64,000 nt of DNA from Roseivirga spongicola (GTDB taxonomy: Bacteria > Bacteroidota > Bacteroidia > Cytophagales > Cyclobacteriaceae), in assembly GCF_001592965.1 (NCBI RefSeq), contig NZ_LRPC01000029.1:62001-126000 (forward strand). Direction: 5' to 3'. This document shows, piece after piece, positions 47,237 to 50,646 of the stretch. The notes beneath the pieces were generated by a model. It had not been told where the DNA came from. It did no database searches and worked only from the letters and a program-made list of their open reading frames with translations. The position numbers and the translations under genes were made by a program. How positions within the stretch are numbered: position 1 is the stretch's first letter; each line of letters starts with the position of its first letter.

Positions 47237-47269
47237 AGTCGTCCGACCACTTAGAGTGGTCTGACGACT
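47237..47269. repeat. REP-like hairpin H2
   Basis: AGTCGTC-C-GACCACT-TAG-AGTGGTC-T-GACGACT. Compared with H1, two stem positions changed together with their partners, so pairing is preserved. It ends 9 bases from the stop codon of the next gene and may also serve as its 3' hairpin. Confidence 0.9.
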
Positions 47270-47278
47270 AATCCCTTG

Positions 47279-48067
47279 TCAATTATAGTAAATCACTACT
47301 TTGGGCTGCTCTGGTAAAGCTCGGTAGATAGAAGTTAGTTCAGCACTTGGAGCAACCAAATAGATTTGAGGCCGATACTCCATAGTTTCAAAAGTAAATA
47401 CCGAAGTCACAAGTGAGCTCAAAGCGTTGGTTCTTTGGGAGTCAAAAAACTGTCTTTTTGCTCTTCTATCTAGCTTTTTAGAATTCTCTTCTTGACTCAA
47501 AAATAGCTCAAGGCCATTCTCCAAAATCAGCTGAATATGAGTAGGCTCATAAACCAACGAATCAGGTTGTGATACAGATGCTAAAAACTCTTCCTGAGTT
47601 TTTGGAGCAGTCTTCTCAATAATCGGCTCCTTCACAATGGTAGCTCTACTAGAGTCCACTCGTAATGGTTTTGAAAACTGTGTCCAGTACTCCCTCTCTC
47701 CTAGTCGTTTCAGCAAAGGATCTATCTGCATTTCAGCTAGCTGAACTTTGTAAATTGACATACCATTGATAAACAAACTCAAGGAGCTATCTGGAACATT
47801 GAGCACTAGGCTAATCGAATCTTTCTTCGGCAAAGCGAGTAATGCCTTTTTAAAAGCAATCTGTCTTTGAAGGGAATCGAGTCCGTTTACAAACTCTGGT
47901 GATTCCATTTCAACATCCTGGTTCCTCCACTCCTTCAACTTTAAGATTGGAGCTGAAGCTAAGTGAAACATACTTAGTAACAGCAACACTCCGAACACAC
48001 AAGCTACAGCAATGACTGGCTTTCTATATCGCTGAAAAAACGACTTTAAAGTAGCAAATACTTCCAT
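47279..48067 (-). CDS. Membrane-anchored protein of the L,D-transpeptidase cluster
   Basis: A 262-residue protein with one N-terminal membrane segment (residues about 18-38, PVIAVACVFGVLLLLSMFHL) and a periplasmic remainder; family not recognised. The frame is open upstream to 48133 inside the preceding gene, but the ATG at 48067, one base beyond the neighbour's stop codon, is the natural start. It follows a YkuD L,D-transpeptidase gene directly, so a role in peptidoglycan cross-linking or anchoring is likely by association only. Confidence 0.65.
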   Translation of the reverse strand: MEVFATLKSFFQRYRKPVIAVACVFGVLLLLSMFHLASAPILKLKEWRNQDVEMESPEFVNGLDSLQRQIAFKKALLALPKKDSISLVLNVPDSSLSLFINGMSIYKVQLAEMQIDPLLKRLGEREYWTQFSKPLRVDSSRATIVKEPIIEKTAPKTQEEFLASVSQPDSLVYEPTHIQLILENGLELFLSQEENSKKLDRRAKRQFFDSQRTNALSSLVTSVFTFETMEYRPQIYLVAPSAELTSIYRALPEQPKVVIYYN

Positions 48068-48068
48068 C

Positions 48069-48716
48069 TTAGAAGATATAAACTTTGGCACCCATTGGCA
48101 TAGACTTATAAACAAGCTCAAGGTTTTCGTCATTTAGGCGAATACAACCATGCGTAACCGGAAGCCCTAAAAACCGCTGGAAAAGCGTACCGTGAATCAA
48201 ATAGCCATCGCCTAAGCTTAGAGAATAATCACCAAGCACTCCATACTCAAACCTTGAGGGGTGATTGTACGATGGCACAGGCAAGCCTTCCTCCACAAAA
48301 GCCCAGTCTGGCTTCTTCCATACCGGGTCTTTCGTTTTATTTAATATTCTGAATTCGCCTTTAGGCGTTTTAAACATCCACTTTTCTTTCTCGCTCTTTT
48401 TAAGAAGAACATAACTACCTGTAGAGCACATGTCTTTTTTAATCAGTTCATCGCCCTTATATAGGTAGAACTCGTTCATGGTGCTATTCACCACTAGGTA
48501 ATTTGTTTTGGGCATATTAGCCTTCAATTTTTTATCTAGCGAAGTCAATTCCTTTTCGGCATTGGACTTCATTACCCGAAACGTTGAATCGTTCACCTCA
48601 GGCTCGTTGCCAATGGTAGCCAAAGCAATTGTAACCGACTGTAGATTGAGCACAAGCAACAGCCCTGAAATGCTCAGGCTTACAATCATTAAGGTTTTTA
48701 CTATTCTCTTATTCAT
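48069..48716 (-). CDS. L,D-transpeptidase (YkuD domain)
   Basis: A 215-residue protein with an N-terminal signal anchor (LMIVSLSISGLLLVLNLQS). The YkuD catalytic domain runs over residues about 75-215: LVVNSTMNEFYLYKGD, GEFRILNKTK, the first histidine in YLIHGTLFQRF and the catalytic cysteine in THGCIRLNDEN. Such enzymes form 3-3 cross-links in peptidoglycan or attach lipoproteins to it from the periplasmic side. It is encoded one base after the next L,D-transpeptidase gene ends, in a compact envelope operon. Confidence 0.9.
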   Translation of the reverse strand: MNKRIVKTLMIVSLSISGLLLVLNLQSVTIALATIGNEPEVNDSTFRVMKSNAEKELTSLDKKLKANMPKTNYLVVNSTMNEFYLYKGDELIKKDMCSTGSYVLLKKSEKEKWMFKTPKGEFRILNKTKDPVWKKPDWAFVEEGLPVPSYNHPSRFEYGVLGDYSLSLGDGYLIHGTLFQRFLGLPVTHGCIRLNDENLELVYKSMPMGAKVYIF

Positions 48717-48717
48717 T

Positions 48718-49812
48718 TCAATTACCCGTTGTGGGCATATTTAGTGCACCGACAATGAGCACTGGCGTGTTTTCTGGCACCAGTTTCCATATTTTGTCCA
48801 TGTCTGAATTTTCTAAGGCAATACATCCGTCTGTCCAATCGATGCCTTTTCCACCATCTCCATGTATTTCGATCAGGTTACCAATGCTTGCGCTTTGGGG
48901 AATTATTCCCTCAGCTTTATTCTGCTTAAATCTCTTTTTATCTTCCTCATTCGGATAGTCCAAAAGAAAGGCCTTGTAATACTTAGTTTGGCCATTAGCC
49001 TTTCGCTTCAATACCTTGTAATGACCTTCTGGAGTTGTTTTATCTCCCGACCGCTGCTTATCGCCAATCCAATTGGCACCCAACTCTACTGAATAAGTAC
49101 TCAGCAGTTTGCCTCTACTATAGATTTTAAGCTCCCTATTGTACTTGTTCACCACTACCAATGCCGAACCTGTTCTTCTAGAATTTTCAATGGCTGAATT
49201 CACCCACTTTTTCCAAGTTGGAACCTCTCTTGAAAATTCTTCGAGTGTATTTTTTGCGTAAACAACCAACTCCCCCACGCCAGACTCCAAGACTTTGAGA
49301 TTTTGCTCCATCTTTCCAGTATTTCCTTTCGCTAATGAGTTAGTCAACTCCTGATGTTTAAGCCTACTACTCGCCAGTAAACTCAATTGCCTTTTACTCA
49401 TTGGCAAGCGCTTATAGCTACCATCGAATAGAGTTAGCTGTCCACCAATATTTTTAAGCCTATTGGCAAAATTGTTCGTAAGCTTTTTACTTCCTGCTTT
49501 TGCCTCTTGAGCGGCCATTTCGGCATACTCAATTGACTTCTTAGCGAAGTCTCTGCTCTCGCTATAAGTTCTCAGAAAAAAGAGCCTTTCGTTTTCAGCG
49601 CTCCACGAATTCATAGCAGAATCGTAAAACATCTTGGCTTTCGTCCAGCTACTTTTAGCATAAACCGAAGCCTTTTGTTTATCGGCCAAGGCTAGTTTTT
49701 CTCTAGCCAGCGCCAGCTCATCTAAAGGCGGTTTGGGATATAGCGCAAAACCCGACAAAACCAACAGCACAACTAATGCCGACAATCCCAAAACCAACCA
49801 TTTAAATCTCAT
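48718..49812 (-). CDS. YafK-like L,D-transpeptidase with helical N-terminal domain
   Basis: A 364-residue protein with an N-terminal membrane segment (LVLGLSALVVLLVLSGFALY). A helical region follows (about 30-200, LALAREKLALADKQ, SRDFAKKSIEYAEMAAQEAK). A C-terminal YkuD-type domain has LVVVNKYNRELKIYSRGK, DKTTPEGHYKVL, IEIHGDGGKGIDW and the catalytic cysteine in TDGCIALENSD. The latter pattern is the COG3034/YafK type, whose E. coli member DpaA cuts Lpp off peptidoglycan. Here it could cut or form such links. The adjacent upstream gene encodes a lysine-ended lipoprotein. Confidence 0.85.
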   Translation of the reverse strand: MRFKWLVLGLSALVVLLVLSGFALYPKPPLDELALAREKLALADKQKASVYAKSSWTKAKMFYDSAMNSWSAENERLFFLRTYSESRDFAKKSIEYAEMAAQEAKAGSKKLTNNFANRLKNIGGQLTLFDGSYKRLPMSKRQLSLLASSRLKHQELTNSLAKGNTGKMEQNLKVLESGVGELVVYAKNTLEEFSREVPTWKKWVNSAIENSRRTGSALVVVNKYNRELKIYSRGKLLSTYSVELGANWIGDKQRSGDKTTPEGHYKVLKRKANGQTKYYKAFLLDYPNEEDKKRFKQNKAEGIIPQSASIGNLIEIHGDGGKGIDWTDGCIALENSDMDKIWKLVPENTPVLIVGALNMPTTGN

Positions 49813-49828
49813 AGGCTTTCATAAATAG

Positions 49829-49865
49829 AAAATCCCCTAGAGCCTAAGCTTTCGGGGACTTTTCA
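49829..49865 (-). terminator. Terminator-like hairpin between lipoprotein and L,D-transpeptidase genes
   Basis: On the minus strand, TCCCC and GGGGA arms with an inner AGC-TTAG-GCT stem are followed by TTTTC. It could limit read-through from the lipoprotein gene into the transpeptidase genes, giving much more lipoprotein than enzyme. Confidence 0.55.
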
Positions 49866-49881
49866 CATGATTCAAATACTA

Positions 49882-50481
49882 TTACTTTCTTGCAGTTTTG
49901 TATTTGCTGATCACCTCTGTTAATTCAGTGTTGATGGAGCTAGCCTTTTCTCTGGCAACAGATAATTTCTCCATTGTTGGTTTCAACTGACCGCTCTGAA
50001 ACATCTCGTTAGACTCGTTCATTGATGTTTCGATAGCATCTAGCTCTGCTTTGATAGCCACTAAAGCAGTTGAACCTTCTTTACCTCTTGGGGCTTCAGA
50101 AATAAGCGTTCTAGCTTCTGCTACTAATTCAGATACTTCACTGATGGTAGCTGTAATTTCAGATCTTAATGACATAATCACCTCATTGGTGTTAGCAGTA
50201 AGCTCTGTAGCTTGCTCTGTTACAGCATTTAGTTTTTCGATAGTAACATCGTACTTCTTGAAGAATTTAGATTTTTGCTCTTCTAGGCTAGCCATTGCTA
50301 CAGCCATAGAGTCGTTCAATGCCTGAAATTCATCTTCCAAGTAAATGTCTGCACCAGCAACCTGCGCTCCGCTGATGGCTGCGTTTGCTGCATCAACTTC
50401 TGCTTGTGGAACACCAGCACATGAGGTTAAGCCAATAATACCAATGAACAATGCACCGATAAATGTGTTTTTAGCTTTCAT
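49882..50481 (-). CDS. DUF4398-like helical lipoprotein with C-terminal lysine
   Basis: A 199-residue lipoprotein: signal with lipobox LTSC, Cys21. The mature part is almost wholly helical, with an alanine-rich start (AEVDAANAAISGAQVAGADIY) like DUF4398 domains and a long coiled-coil region (ELTANTNEVIMSLRSEITA). It ends in SKYKTARK, so the last residue is lysine, as in Braun's lipoprotein (TKYRK), which L,D-transpeptidases link to diaminopimelate. The two following genes are L,D-transpeptidases. An outer-membrane tethering role is inferred from this combination, not shown. Confidence 0.8.
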   Translation of the reverse strand: MKAKNTFIGALFIGIIGLTSCAGVPQAEVDAANAAISGAQVAGADIYLEDEFQALNDSMAVAMASLEEQKSKFFKKYDVTIEKLNAVTEQATELTANTNEVIMSLRSEITATISEVSELVAEARTLISEAPRGKEGSTALVAIKAELDAIETSMNESNEMFQSGQLKPTMEKLSVAREKASSINTELTEVISKYKTARK

Positions 50482-50646
50482 AATTAGTCTTTCGTCTTTC
50501 GTTTTTAGTAGCCTTTGTTAAGACCATTTTTTTAAATCGATCATTTGACGAAGACCTGATAAAAGGTCACATGTTGGGGTGAAAAATATTTTTCTTCCAC
50601 ACAATATTGATTGAACAAAGCCTGTTATAGACCTATTCTACCTACT

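Follow-up and report, generated by a model that had tools for sequence, protein, structure and literature searches.

The window analysed here is a stretch of 64,000 nucleotides (nt) from Roseivirga spongicola (contig NZ_LRPC01000029.1, positions 62,001 to 126,000). On its reverse strand lies a unit of four genes encoding a lipoprotein, two proteins with a YkuD (L,D-transpeptidase, LDT) domain, here called LDT1 and LDT2, and a fourth product, open reading frame 4 (ORF4; Table 1). A preliminary description had drawn attention to a lysine-ended lipoprotein beside two YkuD-domain genes, and this part of it is borne out: LDT1 (68.2 bits) and LDT2 (68.9 bits) both exceed the PF03734 cut-off of 23.4 bits, and a search of the 4.48-Mb genome at E ≤ 0.001 gave no other PF03734 match. 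The YafK- and YkuD-type genes that it placed next on the strand are indeed there, with the YafK/DpaA-like gene (LDT1) coming first and the ErfK/YbiS-like gene (LDT2) second. The unit is larger than had been described, since it also includes a fourth gene and an upstream promoter motif.

Table 1 Positions in the window of the four genes and associated elements
Feature	Position	Strand	Description
Promoter motif of extracytoplasmic function (ECF) sigma type (assigned by resemblance), GTGACCTTTTATCAGGTCTTCGTC	50547..50570	(-)	GTKACYTW-N12-CGTC; 65 nt upstream of the lipoprotein ATG
Lipoprotein gene, 199 aa	49882..50481	(-)	Lipobox LTSC; C-terminus SKYKTARK; predicted helical bundle (ORF, AlphaFold2 model, orthologues)
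Terminator-like hairpin in the lipoprotein–LDT1 gap	49813..49881	(-)	-19 kcal/mol, z -2.1
LDT1, 364 aa	48718..49812	(-)	Hydrophobic segment 6-24; helical domain about 25-195; YkuD domain
LDT2, 215 aa	48069..48716	(-)	YkuD, likely L,D-transpeptidase type; THGCIRL; Cys191, Arg193
ORF4, 262 aa	47279..48067	(-)	Hydrophobic segment 18-36, then probable degenerate YkuD fold

Conservation and distribution of the unit

We read 22 loci at length, comprising a near group of 15 (six from the genus, seven others from the family, a Bacteroidales metagenome-assembled genome (MAG), L037, and an unassigned MAG, L039) and a far group of seven from elsewhere in the same phylum, two of which are close kin. The window and its five genus relatives were found through the lipoprotein and LDT1 alike, G312 through the lipoprotein, and the other 15 through LDT1. 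Profile matches and coordinates placed the lipoprotein, LDT1 and LDT2 in this order in all 22 loci, so the lipid-anchored helical lipoprotein reported earlier is tied to YkuD enzymes by gene order throughout. ORF4 was found in 21, the exception being L090, where the locus ends just past LDT2. For the residue counts below, the alignments comprise 15 LDT1, 21 LDT2, 21 lipoprotein and 16 ORF4 sequences out of the 22 loci, the lipoprotein set without one member of the close-kin pair; structures were predicted for the lipoprotein and ORF4.

The distribution searches were made within the phylum, plus one contig scan that yielded L039, and the surveys based on the lipoprotein, independent of LDT1, covered the genus (19 genomes) and the order (291 genomes). 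Six of the 19 genus genomes have the lipoprotein, and the same six have LDT1, with a further short, weak LDT1 match in G011. Across the order, the lipoprotein profile gave five strong matches, plus five weak ones that were dropped (E 4e-4 to 0.01). LDT1 was matched at E ≤ 1e-40 in 13 of 390 genomes of the family, and a sample of 395 genomes from the phylum gave 64 matches at E ≤ 1e-20, nine of them near full length (at least 243 bits) and the remainder covering the catalytic domain only. The four-gene unit is thus scattered in the phylum, not universal. The literature matches listed included no paper on the four-gene set, the search's coverage leaving out most subscription journals.

LDT2 and ORF4 are separated by one base if ORF4 starts, as is likely, at the ATG at 48067; the ORF list gives an earlier start. 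Directly after ORF4, at 47237-47269, we noted by eye an inverted repeat with one mismatch, AGTCGTCCGACCACT-TAG-AGTGGTCTGACGACT, perhaps the terminator of the four-gene unit. Two further loci have peculiarities of their own: the LDT1 frame is split in two in L092 (4199-5394, genome G847), through mutation or assembly error, and L020 (11399-15939) contains three adjacent ORFs with identical C-terminal 25 residues (AIIQGFIGWFMLTIFSVSLISQLLN).

The lipoprotein and the YkuD-related proteins encoded beside it

The lipobox cysteine is present in all 21 aligned lipoproteins, and none of them has K-(D/E)2 at +2 to +6, which a passage of PMC5080379 gives as the surface-export signal; on this basis, the lipoprotein may face the periplasm. 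Its AlphaFold2 model (mean predicted local distance difference test score (pLDDT) 88.5, predicted template modelling score (pTM) 0.75) consists of helices at 26-41, 49-70, 78-129, 134-162 and 166-198. Fold searches could not assign it to a family, returning only common helical bundles (best Z 11.8, the N-domain of BB0323 tied with TBK1) and no Foldseek match at E ≤ 0.001. The ten Pfam families listed at E ≤ 1 do not include Lpp (PF04728). The earlier label 'DUF4398-like' applies at best to the relatives: the window protein had no PF14346 match at E ≤ 1, and five of six relatives' lipoproteins matched the family, all below its cut-off (best 18.6 versus 27.9 bits).

The lipoprotein and LDT1 share a domain. 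Comparison of the lipoprotein profile with the first 205 residues of LDT1 in hhalign aligned 188 columns with a score of 117.8 (E 5e-18, probability 99.0), against 15.6 and 17.7 for reversed controls, at most 18.3 for 30 column shuffles and 13.5 for the catalytic half. The LDT1 profile finds the lipoprotein in all 22 loci (E 1e-7 to 4.5e-20); the converse search finds LDT1 in 20. By this comparison, the N-terminal domain of LDT1 is a paralogue of the lipoprotein. The Lpp system is not known to have a counterpart of a lipoprotein domain carried inside a YkuD enzyme.

The catalytic half of LDT1 carries the motif TDGCIAL, with Cys330 followed by Ala332 at Cys+2, and Lys252 and Tyr278 upstream; the Ala, K252 and Y278 are each found in 15 of 15 aligned rows. 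Transpeptidases have an arginine two residues after the catalytic cysteine, where DpaA-like proteins mostly have alanine or asparagine (passages of PMC8263019). DpaA with K83A is inactive, and the Y109A and Y131A variants retain little activity (passages of PMC10653827). The best solved match to LDT1 is 8ikr (46.9 bits), ahead of Pgp2, Bd1075 and Csd6; we infer that 8ikr is DpaA from its mention in PMC10653827 and from the matching residues. In the HMMER alignment to 8ikr, DpaA Lys83 falls on K252 and Tyr109 on Y278, the same offset putting an arginine at 108. Since Pgp2 and Csd6 have both the lysine and the alanine, these two residues cannot separate an amidase from a carboxypeptidase. HMMER alignments to Pgp2 and Csd6 also place the carboxypeptidase tryptophan (Trp158 in Csd6, numbered by the offset that makes the Csd6 lysine 107) on Glu315 of LDT1, which is invariant in 15 of 15. 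The NCBIfam model LdtF_DpaA_YafK matches LDT1 at E 8.6e-11 with 41.4 bits, far under its cut-off of 365. From these signatures, LDT1 probably acts like the hydrolytic branch (DpaA/L,D-carboxypeptidase) and may be an amidase; we do not file it as DpaA.

LDT2 is likely the bond-maker, of L,D-transpeptidase type: the catalytic cysteine and the arginine at Cys+2 are found in 21 of 21 aligned sequences, in agreement with the HGC-x-R motif, and its best solved matches are titled L,D-transpeptidases.

Neither Pfam nor NCBIfam gave a match to ORF4 at E ≤ 1. Its profile matches that of LDT2 (E 6e-5, score 38.7, controls at most 17.6), near the scores of 40.7 and 43.6 obtained between LDT2 and LDT1 in two comparisons. 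Of the 50 structure matches listed for the ORF4 model (pLDDT 86.6), 48 are titled L,D-transpeptidase/YkuD or Csd6/Pgp2/Bd1075; the other two are 4xxt, which also matches the LDT2 profile, and 1zat, an Enterococcus L,D-transpeptidase. The best match has Z 7.7 and a root-mean-square deviation of 3.5 over 99 residues, a Z below the tool's safe level of 8, and the Foldseek E-values are weak (best 7.8e-3), so that a YkuD fold for ORF4 has moderate support. No alignment column has cysteine or histidine in more than half of the 16 rows, and ORF4 is probably a catalytically dead pseudo-L,D-transpeptidase.

Hairpin and promoter motif

A terminator-like hairpin between the lipoprotein gene and LDT1 had been noted before; in the window, six of 200 shuffles fold as well as it does. 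It has a T-rich tail; a simple terminator scan, which permits shorter loops only, did not list it. A hairpin with a T-rich tail follows the lipoprotein stop codon in 14 of 15 near-group loci, its sequence varying by lineage, under a rule without a shuffle control of its own. The same rule flags three of six far-group loci, in possibly coding stretches. Fold z-scores for the 100 nt past the stop range from -0.6 to -5.4 across 21 loci (window -0.9). The hairpin suggests that the lipoprotein transcript would be in excess over the enzyme transcripts.

Upstream of the lipoprotein gene, a GTNAC-type motif followed by CGTC occurs in 14 of the 15 near-group loci, of which a stricter expression finds 12, with identical spacing save in one locus, where it is 1 nt longer. 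On the gene strand, it is absent from L039 and from all six far-group loci; L077 has a looser match on the opposite strand. We assign the motif to the ECF type on the strength of resemblance and of the neighbouring sigma genes. All eight near-group Bacteroidota loci outside the genus have an ECF sigma gene no more than 2.5 kb away, adjacent and divergent to the lipoprotein gene in seven, and L077 has a weaker sigma match near the unit. The closest relative of this sigma factor in the window genome (G000) is encoded elsewhere (E 1.6e-34; next 4.6e-17); it is preceded, at a distance of 21 bases, by an exact motif match, one of four in this genome.

Exact motif matches in G000 number four, compared with five for a reversed control; ten other genomes gave 40 and 98, respectively, in sum, and the motif exceeded its control only in G016 (5 versus 1) and G006 (6 versus 3). 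As genome totals are mostly not above the reversed control, the case for the motif rests on its placement and on repeated targets. The lipoprotein unit carries the exact motif in nine of the ten other genomes, and the tenth, G831, has the one-base-longer form. We read the DNA around 30 of the 40 matches; seven had no ATG-started ORF of at least 60 aa within 200 nt.

Several genes recur near the motif or the sigma gene. A small protein adjoins the ECF sigma gene in all eight sigma-bearing near-group loci (for example, L040 8964-9362, L035 4120-4524, L037 3983-4381 and L038 4119-4520) and is itself preceded by the motif in G831 and G752; two that were tested had no Pfam match, and it is possibly a regulator of the sigma factor. 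The G000 match at C1:740071-740094 (L105 5072-5095) lies between the closest sigma relative (C1:740116-740664) and a divergent operon whose products, named by eye, are a C39-like peptidase, an ATP-grasp protein, a glutamate-cysteine ligase-like protein and an N-formylglutamate amidohydrolase-like protein; a similar first operon gene lies downstream of the motif in G016, G014, G007 and G312. An MscS-like channel gene, also named by eye, lies downstream of another match (L106 2645-4273, G000:C1) and adjoins ORFs of a repeated unit resembling a CRISPR array. Finally, a second coiled-coil lipoprotein, named by reading, follows the motif in G000:C1 (L107 3659-4423) and in all four other genus genomes searched. 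We considered it as support for tethering and set it aside: it ends in QARLK in the window genome, but its orthologues end in N, H, H and H.

A sigma-70 scan did not rise above shuffles (six found versus a mean of 7.4). For the Bacteroidota housekeeping promoter, the 21 regions upstream of the lipoprotein gene gave no full match, one match to the -7 part and one to a looser form.

Possible functions and comparison with known systems

Our preferred reading, which we hold with moderate confidence, is that the unit encodes a stress-induced envelope module that would make and break L,D-amide bonds, with the lipoprotein as an outer-membrane partner placing or regulating the enzymes. An ECF sigma factor would control the four proteins. 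In peptidoglycan, bonds to the L-centre carboxyl of diaminopimelic acid would be formed by LDT2 and hydrolysed by LDT1, a member of the DpaA/L,D-carboxypeptidase branch; ORF4, as a dead YkuD partner, would probably be regulatory. The lipoprotein would be anchored in the outer membrane and, because its bundle is homologous to the N-terminal bundle of LDT1, the two would probably pair, so that enzymes anchored in the inner membrane could work where the wall meets the outer membrane. The terminator would let the lipoprotein outnumber the enzymes.

Several observations weigh against this module. Bundle pairing, though probable, is argued from homology only, and the excess of lipoprotein over LDT1 expected from a terminator is as compatible with a substrate or structural function as with a scaffold. 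Control through the motif is not conserved family-wide, none of the six far-group loci carrying it, and the exact motif is no commoner than its reversed control in nine of 11 genomes. As for the enzymes, the position of DpaA Gln86 (LDT1 255) is glutamine in only two of 15 LDT1 sequences, the Cys+2 alanine and the lysine are common to L,D-carboxypeptidases such as Pgp2 and Csd6, and the ORF4 profile does not clearly match the LDT1 catalytic domain (score 21.8). The unit is also uncommon, with full-length LDT1 in nine of the 395 genomes of the phylum sample.

The preliminary description had proposed a Braun-lipoprotein analogue and had named orthologues without a terminal lysine as one finding that would count against it. 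Among 21 orthologues, the last residue is lysine in seven (the six of the genus and G312), serine in eight, glycine in two, arginine in two, alanine in one and valine in one; 14 therefore lack the terminal lysine, and the proposal falls for the family as a whole. The last lysine stands at the C-terminus in seven, one to three residues from it in seven, six or seven in four, and 16, 21 and 62 in three far-group sequences. Near-group tails are basic (RK, RRK, KK, GRKG, TKKS, AKRG, GKRS, TRRV, KKS, KKA, AGR): their charge is conserved, the terminal lysine is not. A terminal lysine is in any case weak evidence by itself, since seven of 44 picked ORFs of the window also end in one and, according to a passage of PMC12274547, so do more than 20% of the periplasmic proteins and lipoproteins of E. 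coli. Nor can it be the main point of the unit, whose gene set is conserved far beyond it. A simple Lpp analogue conserved family-wide is ruled out, and the module does not in general work by a conserved terminal-lysine linkage of Lpp type. What endures of the analogy is the lipid-anchored helical lipoprotein next to YkuD enzymes, with the transpeptidase arginine of LDT2 and the DpaA-type residues of LDT1, and the terminator-like hairpin; the unconserved lysine, the bundle fold and the lack of Lpp among the Pfam families listed speak against the rest.

Such a linkage might still operate in Roseivirga and near kin only. There, like LdtA-C acting on Lpp, LDT2 would join the lipoprotein's C-terminal lysine to diaminopimelic acid, and LDT1, like DpaA, would detach it. 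We regard this as rather unlikely. The six genus orthologues all end in RK despite a two-residue variation in the preceding linker, a constancy that could be due to selection or to short divergence; the last two residues in G312 are KK. A transpeptidase-type and a DpaA-type enzyme are at hand as the sole YkuD genes of the genome, the hairpin suggests an excess of lipoprotein, and in Dickeya the C-terminal Lys box suffices for attachment and tolerates substitutions, as a passage of PMC12274547 has it. Against this, ends such as RRV, KRG and KRS keep the charge without a final lysine, the three far-group orthologues without a lysine in their last 16 residues retain both enzymes, and the modelled lipoprotein fold is unlike Lpp. 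Mapped on the LDT2 tree, the terminal lysine needs two changes and, in 10% of the bootstrap trees, one, which leaves room for a single event. In a broader form that we find similarly doubtful, Roseivirga and near kin would have a reversible, Lpp-independent outer-membrane tether: LDT2 would attach the lipoprotein to peptidoglycan by its basic, lysine-ended tail or by another lysine, LDT1 would dock on it and release it, the pseudo-transpeptidase would set the balance, and the ECF sigma factor would switch the set on under envelope stress. If so, LDT1 would carry a copy of the helical bundle of its own substrate.

Alternatively, the unit may serve peptidoglycan editing only, with LDT2 making 3-3 cross-links, LDT1 acting as an L,D-carboxypeptidase and the lipoprotein serving as an LpoA/LpoB-like activator. 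LDT1 matches Pgp2 and Csd6 and shares their lysine and alanine, and some DpaA homologues have been suggested to be L,D-carboxypeptidases (passage of PMC8263019); the weak NCBIfam matches of LDT2 include LdtE, a cross-linking enzyme according to a passage of PMC12729407. The glutamate that LDT1 has in place of the D-Ala-pocket tryptophan, in 15 of 15 sequences, tells against carboxypeptidase activity, and we consider this explanation unlikely.

Covalent binding could also occur through another lysine, for example Lys134, which lies in an APxGK(E/D)G stretch and is invariant in 21 of 21 lipoproteins, at the turn linking the long helix to the following one. A precedent is LimB of Coxiella, attached through an internal lysine (passages of PMC12274547 and PMC12729407). 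In the bundle of the window's LDT1, however, the aligned position is also a lysine, pointing to a structural role for Lys134; we consider this explanation very unlikely. That the lipoprotein is merely a gene neighbour under shared regulation, without a direct part in the work of the enzymes, as the hairpin parting it from their genes might suggest, is highly improbable given its order in 22 of 22 loci, some phylogenetically distant within the phylum, and the duplication of its domain within LDT1.

The module proposed here resembles the Lpp system of Escherichia coli (Lpp, LdtA/LdtB/LdtC and DpaA), in that both have a lipid-anchored helical protein, a Cys-x-Arg YkuD protein and a Cys-x-Ala YkuD protein, and within the genus a terminal lysine. 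It differs in that the genes are linked in one unit and the terminal lysine is unconserved, and in having an ECF-type motif, a DpaA-type enzyme in which the lipoprotein domain is repeated, and a probable pseudo-transpeptidase. The mature lipoprotein is about 179 aa long and modelled as a multi-helix bundle, whereas Lpp forms a trimer of 58-residue helices. Compared with DpaA (YafK, LdtF), LDT1 has the YkuD domain, the Cys+2 alanine, the Lys83 and Tyr109 equivalents and 8ikr as its best solved match; it differs in its low NCBIfam score (41.4 versus 365 bits), an extra N-terminal helical domain and hydrophobic segment, the mostly unmatched Gln86, and Glu315 at the place of DpaA Met133 (via the Csd6/Pgp2 alignment). 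Csd6, Pgp2 and Bd1075 match its catalytic domain at 34-41 bits and have the loop 1 lysine in common with it; the Cys+2 residue is alanine in Csd6 and Pgp2, as in LDT1, and valine in Bd1075, and LDT1 differs from Csd6 and Pgp2 by the invariant glutamate in place of the D-Ala-pocket tryptophan. The likeness of the lipoprotein to DUF4398 (PF14346) is confined to weak matches to the N-terminal part of five of six relatives' lipoproteins, all below the curated cut-off, with none for the window protein.

Outside Pseudomonadota, an Lpp analogue has been proposed in WP_009060351, an abundant lipoprotein of Methylacidiphilum fumariolicum, on the basis of its C-terminal Tyr and Lys and its presence in the peptidoglycan fraction; compared by description only, it differs in its length of 139 aa and in being specific to its own group and Verrucomicrobiota (passages of PMC10260701). 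DpaA-like enzymes occur in many bacteria lacking Lpp, Bacteroidetes included, where they must serve a different purpose, as a passage of PMC8263019 puts it. One recurring unit here joins an enzyme of DpaA type, an enzyme of transpeptidase type, a related protein that is probably dead and a lipoprotein built on the helical domain that the DpaA-type enzyme also carries; it thereby names a candidate partner or substrate for the DpaA-type enzyme and makes the question testable in strains of Roseivirga or Marinoscillum.

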